A stretch of 53,865 nt of DNA from Limisphaerales bacterium (GTDB lineage: Bacteria > Verrucomicrobiota > Verrucomicrobiia > Limisphaerales > UBA11358), in NCBI GenBank assembly GCA_003161635.1, contig PMOA01000041.1, forward strand, positions 18,912-72,776. The letters run 5' to 3'. Position 1 is the stretch's first letter; every line of letters starts with the position of its first letter. Shown here one piece after another: positions 30,677 to 49,553 of the stretch. A program made the position numbers and the translations under genes. The notes under the pieces were generated by a model. The model worked only from the letters and a program-made list of their open reading frames with translations. It had not been told where the DNA came from and ran no database searches.

Positions 30677-31645
<969 letters not shown>

Positions 31646-31653
31646 AAATCCAA

Positions 31654-32073
31654 ATGCGAACTTACACTTCTATCGAAACCGAATTTCTTCAAGCCTTCGG
31701 AAAATCTAGTAGTTTTTCATGGTGTGATTTTCGTCCAAGTTCTAATGGCAATCTCATCAATGCATCGCTGGCAATTTTGCCATTAGCCTCCGCTGAAGAG
31801 ACTCGCGATAAAGCGTGGAACGAATTTCGTCGGATTTGGTTGTGGTTGCAAAATTGGGCGAATCATATCGATGAAGGTGATGTGATTCAGGTTGTTGTTG
31901 GCTTTTCAAGAGAAGGTAAACCTTCCGGTCAAATTTTCAAAGGCCAGCTCAAAGTTATAGATTTCTCAAAGTTGCCACAAAATTTTACCATGCAATTTTT
32001 CACTAAATGTGGTGATTCTTTCCAAGAACTATTCAACTGGAGCACTTATGCCAAAACGCTCAATCCAATTTGA
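31654..32073 (+). CDS. Hypothetical protein (139 aa)
   Basis: MRTYTSIETEFLQAFGKSSSFSWCDFRPSSNG...; lower GC than neighbours. Confidence 0.6.
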   Translation: MRTYTSIETEFLQAFGKSSSFSWCDFRPSSNGNLINASLAILPLASAEETRDKAWNEFRRIWLWLQNWANHIDEGDVIQVVVGFSREGKPSGQIFKGQLKVIDFSKLPQNFTMQFFTKCGDSFQELFNWSTYAKTLNPI

Positions 32074-32130
32074 AACGCAAATCAATTTTGCCCCATTGAC
32101 GCCCTTCCGCATTGCGCTTAATTTTCCAGC

Positions 32131-32334
32131 ATGAGCACGGTTGCCGAAATCAAGGCTGCGATTGACCAGCTCTCGCCGCAGGAGCGTTGCGAGTTGGAAG
32201 CGCTTTTGCATCCGTGAGCGGACGATGATTGGGATCGGCAAATGAAACGTGATGCCGCCGCTGGCAAGTTCGACAAGCTCGTGGCTCAAGTGGACGACGA
32301 CATCGCCAAAGGAAAACTTCGGGACTTTCCGTGA
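32131..32334 (+). pseudogene. Antitoxin-like gene with in-frame TGA at 32215
   Basis: MSTVAEIKAAIDQLSPQERCELEALLHP*ADDDWDRQMKRDAAAGKFDKLVAQVDDDIAKGKLRDFP*. Confidence 0.7.
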
Positions 32335-32350
32335 ATTCTCCGCTTGTTCC

Positions 32351-32503
32351 AGCTCCGCTCGGAGCGACATCTTTGTAGAAAATTTTCCGAATCACAAAAA
32401 GCTCCGTAGGAGCGGCATATCAAAATTGTCGGAATATGTCGCTCCTACGGAGATTTGTCATTTTTGCGGTTTGCGGCTATAAAGATTGCGCTCCTACGGA
32501 GCT
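32351..32503. repeat. Cluster of gctccgtaggagcg-type palindromic motifs
   Basis: Motif agctccgtaggagcgrcat at about 32351, 32400, 32437 (inverted) and 32489 (inverted). Confidence 0.8.
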
Positions 32504-32528
32504 TCATTTTGAATCTTTCGACATTGGA

Positions 32529-33515
32529 ATGAGCCTGCTCGAAGTCAAAGACCTGAAGGTGCATTTCCCGGTGAAGCACGGGATGTTCAGCCGCGTCCGC
32601 GAATTCGTGAAGGCGGTGGACGACGTAAGCTTTGCCATCGAGCCGGGTGAAACGCTCGGCTTGGTCGGCGAAAGCGGCTGCGGCAAGACGACGCTCGGTC
32701 GCGCCATCGTGCGCCTCGTTGAGCCGACGGCCGGCAGCGTTTTGCTCAGTGGCGAGGACATCACGCAGATGAACGGCTCGGAATTGCGCGCGCGGCGGCG
32801 GAAGTTCCAGATGATTTTCCAGGACCCCTACGGCTCGCTCAATCCGCGCATGACGGTCGAGCAAATCGTCGGCGAGGCGCTTGACATCCACCAATTGACC
32901 GACAGCAAATCCGCGCGGCAAAAGCGCATCCTTGAGCTGCTCCAGGACGTGGGGCTCGACCCGGTTTACGCGCAGCGTTATCCACACGAATTCAGCGGCG
33001 GCCAGCGACAGCGCATCGGCATCGCCCGGACGCTGGCGGTTGAGCCGGAACTGATTATTTGCGACGAACCGGTGAGCGCGCTGGACGTTTCCGTGCAGGC
33101 GCAGATCATCAATTTACTTCAGGATTTACAACAGCAGCGCGGCATCGCGTATCTCTTTATCGCGCACGACCTCGCGGTGATCGAACACATCAGCCGTCGG
33201 GTGATGGTGATGTACCTCGGCAAGATTGTGGAAACGGCGGACGCCAAAACCATCATCCGCGAGCCGCAGCATCCCTACACCCAGGCGCTGATTTCCGCCG
33301 TGCCGGAGGTTGATCCCGAAACGAAGCGGCAGCGGATTATTTTGCCGGGTGACGTGCCGTCGCCGATTCATCCGCCGCCAGGTTGTCCGTTTCACCCGCG
33401 CTGTCCAATTGCCGAAGCGCGTTGCCAGACGGAAGTCCCAGCGCTTCGAGAAGTCAAAAAAGACCATTTTGCCGCCTGTCATCTGGCCGGAACGAAGATT
33501 GAGCCAAAGCGGTGA
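32529..33515 (+). CDS. oppF: Oligopeptide ABC transporter ATPase (OppF-like)
   Basis: [84 protein letters not shown]. Confidence 0.96.
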
Positions 33516-35362: not shown

Positions 35363-36607
35363 ATGAAAATCATCAAATACATGCTGCTGACTGTGGCTAC
35401 TTGGGGTGGATTGTTCACTATGGCTGACCCCGCGTTCGCCCAAACCTGGACACAGACCAGTGCGCCAAGCGAATCTTGGAAAGCCGTCGCCTCATCGTCG
35501 GATGGAAGCAAATTGATCGCTGGAGGTTTTGGTTTGATTTACGGCATTTCGACCAATTCGGGAAGCACTTGGATTACAAACACCCAGCCTCAAATGGGCT
35601 CTACGTATTATGGCAGTTGGTCTTCCGTCGCCATATCCGCAGATGGAACTACATATGTGGGCACAATAGGCAATGTAATCTGGGTTTCAACTAATTCAGG
35701 CATTGCTTGGTTGTCGAACAATGTGCCAAGCGCGTCTTTCTTCGTATCTGTTGTGGCCTTATCGGCGGATGGAAGCAAAATGGTGGCAGGGGCAGGGGCA
35801 TATGGTGGTTCTCCGTCCGGGATTTATATCTCGACGAATTCGGGCGTAACTTGGGCGCAAACCACAGCCCCCACCAACAATTGGACATCCGTCGCTTCAT
35901 CGGCGGATGGAACCAAGTTGGTTGCTGCAGCAATGAACTCTGAAGGTGGATTTATTTATGCCTCAATGGATTCGGGTCTTACTTGGACGCTGACTGGCGC
36001 GCCTACCAATAACAGTTGGGCAACGGTTGCTTCATCGGCAGATGGAAGCAAATTAGTGGCGGCAAGTTGGTATGCAATCGTTCCGGACGACATTTATGGG
36101 TGCGTTTACACTTCGACAAATTTTGGAATGTCCTGGACATCGAACAACGTGCCAGACGCGCAATGGCAGAGTGTGGCTGCTTCAGCCGACGGAACTAAAT
36201 TGGTTGCAGTCGCCTTAGAACCTTTCGGCTTGATTTGCAGTTCAACAAATTCAGGTGCGAGTTGGGTATCAAATAGTGCGCCAAATGAATCCTGGTATTC
36301 CGTCGCTTCATCAGCAGATGGTAACAAACTGATGGCGGCGGCTTTGGGAGATCAATCATTTAATCCCGTTCCCATTTACACCTTGCAAACTACGCCGTCA
36401 CCGCAAATGAACATCACGCCGACAAACGGCAACCTCACGCTTTCATGGATTGTGCCTTCGACGGATTTCGTGATGCAGCAAAGTTCGGATTTGGGCAGTT
36501 GGATGGACATGACCAACAAGCCCGTGCTGAACCTCACCAATTTGCAGAACGAAGTGATTCTATCGCCAACCGGCAGCAACGTTTTCTACCGGCTCAAAAC
36601 GCCGTGA
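35363..36607 (+). CDS. Secreted repeat (BNR/beta-propeller-like) protein
   Basis: Signal peptide; ~7 repeats of the type W..VASSADGtKLvAa....IY.STNSG.tW; C-terminal LTLSWIVPSTDFVMQQSSDLGSWMDMTN...VFYRLKTP. Confidence 0.8.
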   Translation: MKIIKYMLLTVATWGGLFTMADPAFAQTWTQTSAPSESWKAVASSSDGSKLIAGGFGLIYGISTNSGSTWITNTQPQMGSTYYGSWSSVAISADGTTYVGTIGNVIWVSTNSGIAWLSNNVPSASFFVSVVALSADGSKMVAGAGAYGGSPSGIYISTNSGVTWAQTTAPTNNWTSVASSADGTKLVAAAMNSEGGFIYASMDSGLTWTLTGAPTNNSWATVASSADGSKLVAASWYAIVPDDIYGCVYTSTNFGMSWTSNNVPDAQWQSVAASADGTKLVAVALEPFGLICSSTNSGASWVSNSAPNESWYSVASSADGNKLMAAALGDQSFNPVPIYTLQTTPSPQMNITPTNGNLTLSWIVPSTDFVMQQSSDLGSWMDMTNKPVLNLTNLQNEVILSPTGSNVFYRLKTP

Positions 36608-45995: not shown

Positions 45996-46856
45996 ATGCT
46001 TGCGGTCATTGGCACTGACCGCTACCGTTTCCGTGTGAATCTTGAAGATCATCTGGGTGACATTATTCGCAAGGCACGGGCGATGAGCGGCGTTTCAGCC
46101 GCAACTGCGGCAACCGCGGCGGGAATTTCCGAAACTGAACTGTCCGCGCTTGAAGAAACCGGACAACCCGGCAAGCGACCGGATTTCACGGCGCTGGCGA
46201 ATCTCATCGGGCTGAATCCAGCCAGGCTCGAAGGCATTGCCAACGGCTGGCATCCGGGCGAAAAGGATTTGAGCCTCTGGCGCGAGCTGCGGCAAATCAG
46301 CACGACCGAAGGCGGCAACACGGTGCATTGTTATTTGATTTGGGATGAAGTCACGCGCGATGCCGCGTTGTTCGACACCGGCTGGGATGCCGCGCCCGTT
46401 TTCAAGCTGATTGAGGAAAATCAGCTTCAACTCAAACACCTGTTCATCACGCACACGCACGAGGACCACGTGGCGGGACTGCAGCCGATTCGCGAACGCT
46501 TCCCAAAAATTCATTTGCACACGGATGCCAGGGGCACCCCGCCGCAACACCGCAACCGGCGCAACGATTTCATCATGCTCGGCAGCCTGCGCATCACGAA
46601 CCGCGAAACACCCGGCCACGCGGAGGATGGCGTGACCTATATCATCGGCACATGGCCGGACGACGCGCCGCACGTGGCGATTGTGGGTGACGCGATTTTC
46701 GCCGGCTCAATCGGGCGCGGAAACCAGTCGTGGGATTTGGCGAGGCAAAAGGTGCGCGAACAAATTTTCACACTGCCGGCGGAGACGTTGATTTGCCCCG
46801 GCCACGGCCCGCTGACGACGGTGGCGGAGGAAAAGGCGCACAACCCGTTCTTTTGA
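45996..46856 (+). CDS. XRE-like HTH + metallo-beta-lactamase-fold hydrolase fusion
   Basis: HTH-like DIIRKARAMSGVSAATAATAAGISETELSALEETG; MBL motif THTHEDHVAG, GDAIFAGSIGR, CPGHGPLTTV. Confidence 0.88.
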   Translation: MLAVIGTDRYRFRVNLEDHLGDIIRKARAMSGVSAATAATAAGISETELSALEETGQPGKRPDFTALANLIGLNPARLEGIANGWHPGEKDLSLWRELRQISTTEGGNTVHCYLIWDEVTRDAALFDTGWDAAPVFKLIEENQLQLKHLFITHTHEDHVAGLQPIRERFPKIHLHTDARGTPPQHRNRRNDFIMLGSLRITNRETPGHAEDGVTYIIGTWPDDAPHVAIVGDAIFAGSIGRGNQSWDLARQKVREQIFTLPAETLICPGHGPLTTVAEEKAHNPFF

Positions 46857-46858
46857 TT
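46704..46858 (+). repeat. MBL gene 3'-end sequence, copy 1 (in the intact gene)
   Basis: ...GNQSWDLARQKVREQIFTLPAETLICPGHGPLTTVAEEKAHNPFF*. Confidence 0.92.
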
Positions 46859-46966
46859 TTTAGGCAATTGAAAGAATTCAGTTAAATGAATAGGATTTCG
46901 CCATGCCCGAATTGAGCCGGTTTTTCGGAATTATCGTTCGCATGTATTTAGCGTGAGAATAGAAGC

Positions 46967-47263
46967 ATGAACCATCCGATTTACAGAGTTCGCTCCGTGA
47001 AAATCGTCGCGCCTTACACGTTGCGGGTGGGGTTTGACGACGGCACGGAGCAGACGATTGATTTTCGTCCGGTGCTGGCGGGCGAACTTTACGGCCCGCT
47101 GCGTGCATTAGCCGTATTCGATGCGGTAAAAATTGATCCCGAAGTCCACACGTTGGTTTGGCCGAACGGCGCGGACTTTGATCCAGCCACGCTTCACGAC
47201 TGGCCGCAATATGCGGAAGCTTTGCTCGCCCGCGCGCGGGAATGGGAAGCGCAACCGGCTTAA
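46967..47263 (+). CDS. DUF2442 domain protein
   Basis: VRSVKIVAPYTLRVGFDDGTEQTIDFRPVLAGELYGPLRALAVFDAVKIDPEVHTLVWPNGADFDPATLHDW. Confidence 0.88.
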   Translation: MNHPIYRVRSVKIVAPYTLRVGFDDGTEQTIDFRPVLAGELYGPLRALAVFDAVKIDPEVHTLVWPNGADFDPATLHDWPQYAEALLARAREWEAQPA

Positions 47264-47417
47264 TCCAATCAGACGCGGAAACCGGTTGTGGGATTTGGCG
47301 AAGCAAAAGGTGCGCGAACAAATTTTCACCCTGCCAGCGGAAACCTTGATTTGCCCCAGCCACGGCCCGCTGACGACGGTGGCGGAAGAAAAAGCAAATA
47401 ATCCATTTTTCTGATTT
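47257..47417 (+). repeat. MBL gene 3'-end sequence, copy 2 (headless)
   Basis: ...GNRLWDLAKQKVREQIFTLPAETLICPSHGPLTTVAEEKANNPFF*, same frame, no start or upstream domain. Confidence 0.92.
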
Positions 47418-47466
47418 GCGATTTTCCATCTGTTGACATTCGTAAGGCCAAGATTACACTTTGTGT

Positions 47467-47721
47467 ATGACAATGCTTTTGCAAACCAGGGTGAAGCCGA
47501 AAGTGGCGGCCAGATTCCAGAAGGCGGCGCGGCGGCGCGGCCTTTCGCCTTACGCCTTCCTGCAACAAATTGTGGCGGACGCCGCTTCATTGGCAGACCC
47601 CAACTCGTCCCCCGCCAGCCTTGAATTGAGCCGCGAAGGATTTACTGTGCCGGAATTGCCCGGCAAAACCGAGCGCGAGAAAATCCGCGCCGCCATCGCC
47701 CGCCGTCATGTTCCTCGCTGA
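47467..47721 (+). CDS. RHH-type antitoxin-like protein
   Basis: MLLQTRVKPKVAARFQKAARRRGLSPYAFLQQIVADAA; overlaps the PIN gene start. Confidence 0.8.
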   Translation: MTMLLQTRVKPKVAARFQKAARRRGLSPYAFLQQIVADAASLADPNSSPASLELSREGFTVPELPGKTEREKIRAAIARRHVPR

Positions 47722-48097
47722 CACCAGCTTTATCGTCAGTCCGTTCGCCAAAACGCCCAAACGCCGCACGTGGGCGCAGAATTTCTTCAAGCAACACCAT
47801 GAACGTTTGTGGACAACGGCGGCGGCGTTCACCGAGGTCAGCCATTTGATCGGGGACTGCAAAATCGTCGCCAAAATCATTGGCGACTACCGTTTTGCGC
47901 TGGACGTGGAGGAGGAAAAATCCGCGCTGGCCGCGCTGCTGGAAAAATACGCGCCGGAAATGGACTTTGCGGACGCGACCCTCGTGCGCGCCAGCGAACT
48001 TTTTCCATCGTTCAAAATCATCACCGACGACAGCCATTTCAACTGGTATCGCCGCAACCGCGATGAGAAACTGCCCGTCATCTGGATTCCTGAATGA
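47708..48097 (+). CDS. PIN-domain (VapC-like) toxin
   Basis: MFLADTSFIVSPFAKTPKRRTWAQNFF...WTTAAAFTEVSHLI...MDFADATLVRASELF...IITDDSHF. Confidence 0.88.
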   Translation: MFLADTSFIVSPFAKTPKRRTWAQNFFKQHHERLWTTAAAFTEVSHLIGDCKIVAKIIGDYRFALDVEEEKSALAALLEKYAPEMDFADATLVRASELFPSFKIITDDSHFNWYRRNRDEKLPVIWIPE

Positions 48098-48103
48098 ACG
48101 TCA

Positions 48104-48195
48104 ATGCACTGCCATCGGAAACCCTGATTTGTCCCGGCCACGGCCCGCTGACGACGGTGGCGGAGGAAAAGGAACACAATCCGTTCTTTCGATTT
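48104..48195 (+). repeat. MBL gene 3'-end sequence, copy 3 (shortest, stop altered)
   Basis: ctgccatcggaaaccctgatttgtcccggccacggcccgctgacgacggtggcggaggaaaaggaacacaatccgttctttcga = LPSETLICPGHGPLTTVAEEKEHNPFFR. Confidence 0.92.
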
Positions 48196-48224: not shown

Positions 48225-48650
48225 ATGGCGCGCATGAAACCACAGCAGATGAGGCGCAAGTCTGACATAAGAAAAGCGATATTGTTTTGGGCTACGGTTG
48301 GGATTGTCGTTAGTGGTTTATTTCCACCGTGGCTTTATACCTTCAACAGGTCAGCCGCCGGTGATGATTTCGGCTGGCATTCCGAACGAAGCGCAGGTTA
48401 TGCGTTTATTTTCAAACCTCCTGAACCACATTTAGGTGCCGACGCTTCTGGTCAAATTATGTCGCTACCACCCGACCCCAAACTTGGTGAATATTTGTTT
48501 GCCTATTGCGGCATAAAGCTCGATCTGGTGAGACTTTTGGTGGAATGGGTCTGCATCTTGGCAGTTTGTGGAGCAATTTGGCTCCGGGAAAGCTTGAGCG
48601 ACGAGAAGATCCAGAGAACGGAAGACAGCAGTGTGCCGCTGAGTGGTTAA
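48225..48650 (+). CDS. Hypothetical membrane protein (141 aa)
   Basis: TM segments AILFWATVGIVVSGLFPPWLY and LVEWVCILAVCGAIWL. Confidence 0.6.
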   Translation: MARMKPQQMRRKSDIRKAILFWATVGIVVSGLFPPWLYTFNRSAAGDDFGWHSERSAGYAFIFKPPEPHLGADASGQIMSLPPDPKLGEYLFAYCGIKLDLVRLLVEWVCILAVCGAIWLRESLSDEKIQRTEDSSVPLSG

Positions 48651-48670: not shown

Positions 48671-49093
48671 TTAAAACTCAAAAAGCGAAAAGTCGAATTG
48701 GGAACCGGGGGCTTGTCTTTTAATGAAATTCGCACTGGGTTGAGGACAATAAAAAATCTCATCCTCGCTCCCGAAAGGCGTTGTTTGAGTAAAGATAATC
48801 TCAATCCTAATTAGGTCGTTTGGACAGTCAATCGCGCGAAAAATGCCATTCCCTCGAATCGGAATTAATTGGCCATCTTCACTTTTTTCCCAAATTTGGA
48901 ATTCTACCGTTTTGCCATCGAGGTCTTTAGCAGTCCATTTTGATTTTATTAGAATCGGCTCATTTAGCATATCCAAAGATTGTTCGCTTGTGGAATTTGT
49001 CAACTTGTGTTGGTTTGAAATTGCAAATTGACCCCATTCGTTTGGGTTGTTAGCCTTTCCTTCCGTTCCAACGGGATTTATGCGACATACCAT
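48671..49093 (-). CDS. Hypothetical protein, 5' end uncertain (may be truncated)
   Basis: ...EPILIKSKWTAKDLDGKTVEFQIWEKSEDGQLIPIRGNGIFRAIDCPNDLIRIEIIFTQTTPFGSEDEIFYCPQP; 5' end runs into ilvN. Confidence 0.5.
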   Translation of the reverse strand: MVCRINPVGTEGKANNPNEWGQFAISNQHKLTNSTSEQSLDMLNEPILIKSKWTAKDLDGKTVEFQIWEKSEDGQLIPIRGNGIFRAIDCPNDLIRIEIIFTQTTPFGSEDEIFYCPQPSANFIKRQAPGSQFDFSLFEF

Positions 49094-49553
49094 TTCAGTG
49101 CTCGTGGAAAACAAGTTCGGCGTGCTCACGCGCGTGGCGGGCTTGTTCAGCGGCCGCGGCTACAACATTGACACCCTCAACGTCGGCCCGACCCAGGACC
49201 CCAAGACGTCCCGCATGACCATCGTCACCCACGGCGACGAGGCCACACTGGAACAAATCGTCAAGCAGCTCAACAAGCTGCCGGACGTCATCAAGGTGCA
49301 GGATTTCCGCGAGGGCGAATACGTGGACCGCGAACTGGTGCTCGTGAAGGTGGCGGTGGACTCGAAGTCGCGCGCCGAGGTGATGCAGATCACAGACATT
49401 TTCCGCGCCAAAATCGTGGATGTGCAGCCCAAGAGCCTCGCCATCGAAATCACCGGCGCCGAAAGCAAGGTGGAGAAATTTGTCGGCCTGATGGATTCGT
49501 TCGGCGTGCAGGAAATCACGCGCACCGGCAAGGTCGCGTTGCCCCGCAAGTGA
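49080..49553 (+). CDS. ilvN: Acetolactate synthase small subunit
   Basis: MRHTISVLVENKFGVLTRVAGLFSGRGYNIDTLNVGPTQDPKTSRMTIVT. Confidence 0.96.
   Translation: MRHTISVLVENKFGVLTRVAGLFSGRGYNIDTLNVGPTQDPKTSRMTIVTHGDEATLEQIVKQLNKLPDVIKVQDFREGEYVDRELVLVKVAVDSKSRAEVMQITDIFRAKIVDVQPKSLAIEITGAESKVEKFVGLMDSFGVQEITRTGKVALPRK

Follow-up and report, generated by a model that had tools for sequence, protein, structure and literature searches.

Foreign modules of small size, for the most part toxin-antitoxin pairs, are found in an uncultured Limisphaerales bacterium and its two close relatives between a gene of the host and a partial copy of its end that was left behind. This arrangement suggests an integrase-free mode of entry into chromosomes through sequence similarity at gene ends. 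Foreign DNA with its own version of the gene end probably came in through a homologous crossover on one side and an illegitimate joint on the other, in the manner of homology-facilitated illegitimate recombination (HFIR).

The window, the whole stretch of 53,865 nucleotides analysed here, contains an intact gene for an XRE protein with a metallo-beta-lactamase-type hydrolase domain (XRE-MBL), the 3' end of which recurs twice downstream (Table 1). The gene end and the two headless copies were found within about 10 nt of the positions given in the original prediction, and the genes that it had named between and after the copies, a DUF2442 gene, an RHH/PIN pair and two ORFans, were all recovered together with a DUF4160 remnant. 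The recurrent sequence is a coding gene end: the repeated block matches copy 2 with 19/152 mismatches (E 4e-48), its last 89 nt (46771-46859) match copy 3 with 10/89 mismatches (E 2e-26), and copies 2 and 3 are 85% identical. These measured mismatches are slightly more numerous than those counted earlier by eye. All three copies end on the right at the stop codon plus 3-4 nt. The left ends of copies 2 and 3 differ, as had been noted, being 149 nt and 86 nt upstream of the stop codon, and they fall 2-9 nt past the stop codons of the DUF2442 and PIN genes, respectively. A search of the whole genome with the core returned these three copies only, and no integrase was found among the ORFs between copies in the window or in either relative (G031 and G032), as expected from the first inspection. 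The RHH/PIN gene order fits a type II toxin-antitoxin module, which is given as putative in view of a PIN match below the cut-off and an antitoxin of no assigned family; a relative of the pair, with 75% DNA identity, is present in G001:C25.

Table 1. Features of the XRE-MBL locus, with positions in the window
Feature	Position	Strand	Basis
Intact host gene: XRE (HTH_31) + metallo-beta-lactamase-fold hydrolase (Lactamase_B), 286 aa	45996..46856	+	ORF; Pfam; orthologues in 55/59 related genomes
Copy 1, repeated 3' end of the intact XRE-MBL gene	46708..46859	+	Repeat search; self-BLAST
DUF4160 gene remnant, ~215-bp internal deletion vs G031	46903..46956	+	Alignment with L035; DUF4160 name assigned by eye
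DUF2442 gene, partner of DUF4160 (one insert)	46967..47263	+	Pfam PF10387, E 1.5e-12; 98% identity to G031 over 238 bp
Copy 2, headless XRE-MBL 3' end	47266..47417	+	87.5% identity over 152 nt
Putative antitoxin, small, RHH-like DNA-binding type	47461..47721	+	ORF; no significant Pfam match; overlaps PIN gene
Putative toxin, PIN-domain, VapC-like (other insert)	47708..48097	+	Pfam PIN E 0.0044, below cut-off; acidic PIN residues visible
Copy 3, headless XRE-MBL 3' end	48107..48195	+	88.8% identity over 89 nt
ORFan, putative membrane protein	48225..48650	+	ORF; no confident family; not at the same place in G031/G032
ORFan overlapping ilvN start	48671..49129	-	ORF; no Pfam family
ilvN, acetolactate synthase small subunit, conserved right flank	49074..49553	+	Pfam ALS_ss_C/ACT

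The two close relatives are G032 (Limisphaerales bacterium bog_1418; MBL protein identity 94%) and G031 (Verrucomicrobia subdivision 3 UBA7542; 93%), which together with the window genome (G000) form a trio of MAGs, that of G031 being 69% complete. Comparison of the locus across the trio revealed the variation in inserts that had been anticipated. G032 represents the empty state, with no repeat and with downstream genes of its own, then ilvN, immediately after the MBL gene; one insert is present in G031, the MBL gene there being followed by DUF4160-DUF2442, one headless copy and then downstream genes of the G032 type; and the window has two, the DUF2442 insert and the RHH/PIN insert. Homology of the window to G031 and G032 restarts at 49021, near ilvN, and the segment 48196-49020 stands in for two small genes that lie between the MBL end and ilvN in these relatives. 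The G031 locus spans two contigs that seemingly abut inside DUF2442, with an overlap of about 23 bp. The same joint between DUF2442 and the partial copy occurs in the window genome and G031, and an assembly artefact is unlikely because this joint was found in two separate MAGs; the DUF2442 segment has higher identity than the DNA nearby (98% versus about 91-92%). DUF4160 is broken in both genomes, by the deletion in the window and by an apparent frameshift, judged by eye, in the longer G031 gene (L035 2582-2860), and DUF2442 is intact. A further candidate, in G067, was rejected as a contig overlap of 141 bp with 100% identity.

The sequence of the gene end itself bears on how the inserts arrived. 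The last 25 nt or so of the intact MBL gene read GCGCACAACCCG in the window and in G031, and differ in G032, with GAACACAATCCG; the displaced ends, namely copy 3 and the headless copy of G031, which continues into downstream genes common to G032, carry the G032 form. Mismatches between the G031 and G032 genes number 8 in the last 60 nt versus 34 in the preceding 801. This sharing and clustering indicate that the present MBL gene end most likely arrived with the adjoining insert and that the old one was pushed away, in line with the proposal that each incoming cassette had carried its own version of the gene end. The mosaic at the gene end in G031 and the window, which was tested for a homologous joint, is short, and no donor was found for it. 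Two orders of arrival in the window would fit these alignments: the DUF insert first, with RHH/PIN entering second, inside the headless copy; or RHH/PIN first, with its loss in G031 through recombination between copies 2 and 3. The headless copy of G031 resembles copy 2 on its left and copy 3 on its right, with an internal deletion of about 40-50 bp.

Differences among the three copies are mostly synonymous, as had been seen by eye (synonymous/nonsynonymous 13/7 for copies 1-2, 7/3 for copies 1-3 and 9/5 for copies 2-3). Pooling 15 pairs of copies gave 88.5 synonymous and 40.5 nonsynonymous changes among 129 differences, or 69% synonymous versus the 29.5% expected (P = 1.4e-19), a value that is indicative because the pairs are not all fully independent, two each coming from the MBL stack, mnmE and fumB. 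The expectation for local duplication followed by drift, about 30% synonymous, was calculated with a transition bias of 4. The residue was changed in 32 of the 448 pooled codons, leaving it the same in 93%; the pair at L227 (start MFELLKTDAHTKARLGRL), of which one copy alone was located by exact match, added nothing to this test. The synonymous excess therefore implies that the two copies of a pair were functional gene ends in separate genomes when they diverged. It also rejects a recent slip duplication, against which the original prediction had argued on the same grounds.

The anatomy is not peculiar to the MBL gene. It was absent from about 50 orthologous MBL loci (genus and order) and from 75 in GTDB genomes, with one 23-bp chance match; none of these orthologues outside the trio has such a repeat, and the locus is therefore no general hotspot. 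The same anatomy recurs at numerous other genes that are unrelated to one another, involves 5' and 3' ends alike and has no common core. The predicted cassette-accumulating locus, dedicated to this gene or to 3' ends in the manner of tRNA-targeting islands, is not supported. The 3'-end targets comprise argJ, mnmE, glyA, pheS, carB and a dinG-like helicase, and the 5'-end targets dnaE, hisC, moeB, lysR and fumB, with names taken from characteristic sequence and a family search for argJ only. Cargo at the bracketed loci includes PIN, ParE, MazF and DUF2442.

Several of these loci are informative. In G031 a PIN toxin and its Phd-like antitoxin lie between copies of the argJ 3' end (138 nt, 88%), and the window genome and G032 have empty sites, with no copy of the argJ end. 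The mnmE 3' end is one target with quite different inserts in two species: a 2.8-kb block of lipid-type genes, by appearance, in G031 (L210, G031:C12, 1543-4510) and a PIN module in G032 (L241, G032:C188, 1141-1977), the former showing that non-toxin DNA can enter too. In the window genome a second copy of the fumB 5' end precedes an insert, and this tailless copy differs from the intact gene by 11 nt and 0 residues; over 89 nt it is 96.6% identical to the intact gene of G032 and 89% identical to the fumB of its own genome. Between fumA and fumB, G032 has two fumB pieces, one a tailless copy and the other an internal fragment, along with a MazF toxin adjoining intact fumB. This interval is a second stack (L197, G032:C8, 6600-8400; L118, G000:C2, 3295-5672), in which small modules, including MazF and a PIN-like gene, differ among the three genomes and are accompanied by tailless and internal fumB fragments. 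At L257 (G000:C110, 1408-2951), three successive 3' ends of a gene ending ...IVPEYKQVVEI have an insert and a ParDE pair between them; copies 2 and 3 match exactly over a stretch of 47 nt, the extra insert adjoins the intact gene, and the G032 orthologue (L262) has the ParDE insert and one partial copy only. A second, weaker downstream copy was also found at glyA in G031. Matching stops at the stop codon in the aligned 3' cases (MBL, argJ and mnmE) and begins near the start codon at fumB, which is what alleles of different species would show. Orthologues from the other two genomes were compared for MBL, argJ, fumB and mnmE, and from these alignments the native and incoming copies appear best resolved at MBL, are suggested at fumB and mnmE, and are ambiguous at argJ; most other targets had no orthologue to compare, and their native copy is left unassigned.

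Toxin loci are enriched in this anatomy. Bracketing, defined as flanking within 900 bp by a direct repeat that is low in copy number and 35 nt or longer, was found at 16 of the 49 PIN and ParE loci of the trio (retrieved matches to PF01850 and PF05016), at least two of which (L255 and L260) look non-coding or low-complexity, versus 26 of 1500 random positions drawn from sampled parts of the same genomes (Fisher 7e-15). The repeats were imperfect, and their copy number was computed on each genome's sampled part only. The contrast is conservative because some of the random matches are these same insertions. Near-identical repeats would be under-assembled in MAGs, which biases the set toward diverged pairs. 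A REP-like intergenic family, GTAGCGCAGACATTCCTGTCTGCGGGTTC, is common in the window genome (L118 14590-14640, L122 2394-2456, L133 2051-2153) and gives many false repeat pairs, which were filtered by copy number. L117 (XRE), L176 (glgP/pfkA-like) and L120 were excluded as belonging to multi-copy families or to remnants of IS elements. Among 30 PIN loci from ten further species of the genus, 6 were bracketed, and in about three of these the repeat was a gene end (e.g., the lysR 5' end); in other families the count was 1 of 30, not gene-like, and neither of the two loci of an E. coli control (yafQ and yafO) was bracketed.

We propose that donor DNA from a related genome would carry its own version of the end of a neighbouring core gene along with a small module, usually a toxin-antitoxin pair. 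One joint would form by homologous recombination inside the host gene, leaving it whole but with the donor end, and the second would be illegitimate, at a chance position in the same gene end, so that the native end would be left beyond the insert; repeated events would stack modules and partial copies. The left limits of the partial copies vary (149, 86, 138 and 67 nt, among others) without shared sequence, which fits an illegitimate joint. A search of the trio, of which G031 is 69% complete, found no Ku gene; classical NHEJ is therefore neither needed nor likely, and the illegitimate joint would probably be microhomology- or replication-based. The motif CCGGCT is common to the native gene and the insert near the copy 2 joint. 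Joints within a few nucleotides of a module stop codon speak against this account, being more regular than random end joining predicts, and we found no donor genome with the same adjacency of gene and module. Repeats so close together should loop out, and addiction may contribute to retention: looping-out would remove both the toxin and the antitoxin gene and thereby penalise the cell, so that addiction modules may be over-represented.

HFIR has been established experimentally (E. coli conjugation, PMC3240628; references in PMC2884548). It is also known from Acinetobacter, Pseudomonas stutzeri and pneumococcus. There, as in the entry proposed here, one homologous and one illegitimate joint add non-homologous DNA beside a conserved anchor; HFIR is known mainly from laboratory selections, whereas in the trio the signature is natural and recurs across the genome, and the end of the anchor is duplicated. 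HFIR has also been proposed for the T6SS immunity-gene arrays of Vibrio cholerae, in which old 3' ends are displaced downstream (PMC5361080). Those arrays and orphan Rhs 3' regions resemble our loci in gaining a new 3' end with a new module, in displacing the old end downstream and in stacking, but their cargo is the gene's own variable toxin end. In the trio the hosts are conserved metabolic genes (MBL, argJ, fumB and mnmE, among others) and the cargo is unrelated to them, with PIN, ParE, MazF and DUF2442 in place of an effector end and immunity gene.

Campbell-type mobility is the main alternative and in our judgement an unlikely one, although several observations suit it. The module and one gene-end copy would loop out by RecA between the repeats, and the circle would insert again in another genome, through one crossover at the corresponding gene end, the joint between module and partial copy thus belonging to the element. 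The direct repeats and the lack of an integrase are compatible with such a cycle, as is the DUF2442/partial-copy joint common to the window genome and G031 within more conserved DNA, and the abutment of module stop codons on the partial copy at MBL and argJ slightly favours it. However, no circle or vehicle was seen: viral contigs gave one weak 45-residue match and nothing relevant, and there was no plasmid match to the window PIN. Inheritance, or ordinary exchange of the entire locus, would explain the shared joint equally well.

Local long target duplication, in which the insertion itself would duplicate 50-150 bp of target and the copies would then decay, is already strongly disfavoured, and we give it a low probability. 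Repeats of such lengths are reported around addiction modules of restriction-modification systems (PMC3874152, PMC1643837), whose 'insertion with long target duplication' (Nobusato et al. 2000), as far as these two papers describe it, is the closest precedent. Both situations involve an addiction module without transposase and variable direct repeats of about 100 bp that are polymorphic between relatives, and the gross anatomy is common to them, with nearly a third of the toxin loci bracketed and the MBL and argJ sites empty in relatives. The origin of the copies differs. In the trio, the cargo is mostly toxin-antitoxin, the repeats are gene ends, the copies diverged as orthologues beforehand and the inserts stack. 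Derivation of both copies from the target by duplication conflicts with the excess of synonymous differences, with copies that end at start or stop codons, and with partial copies that may match the gene of another species better than the one in their own genome, as at fumB.

An old local duplication, after which ordinary allelic recombination replaced the end of the intact gene, would also yield synonymous divergence between the copies. This seems quite improbable, as two events per locus would be needed and the partial copies should decay neutrally, yet residues are kept in 93% of codons. Integrative elements and CIMEs regenerate the 3' end of their host gene and accrete in tandem. A trans-acting integrase that inserts DNA site-specifically at gene ends, leaving CIME-like remnants, would account for the whole host gene, the displaced old end and the tandem accretion, but this reading is largely refuted here and scarcely credible because the targets are many and unrelated and 5' ends are used too. 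Nor do the loci share a core, keep the crossover at a set distance or have an integrase between copies, and each has a different gene end, length and left limit in place of a fixed att core for one recombinase.

Returning to entry by one homologous and one illegitimate joint, the integration mechanism of toxin-antitoxin modules has been stated to be unknown (PMC7167474), and in our searches of the literature outside subscription papers we found no report of such modules systematically bracketed by core-gene ends. About a third of the PIN/ParE loci in the three genomes carry an apparent, readable scar of entry, consisting of an incoming and a displaced gene end, so that entry mode, arrival order and module loss become testable by sequence alone. 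These loci suggest that conserved gene ends can serve as addresses for foreign DNA without a recombinase of its own. A further-reaching and rather doubtful extension is that a toxin-antitoxin pair with a partial core-gene end would constitute a minimal integrase-free mobile unit: any core-gene end could serve as address, host RecA would integrate the unit, the host gene would always be repaired, addiction would prevent loss, and units would pass from one related species to another and accumulate at gene ends. Elsewhere in the window, additional diverged direct repeats (68-87%) occur at 30771-33174 and 35822-36064.
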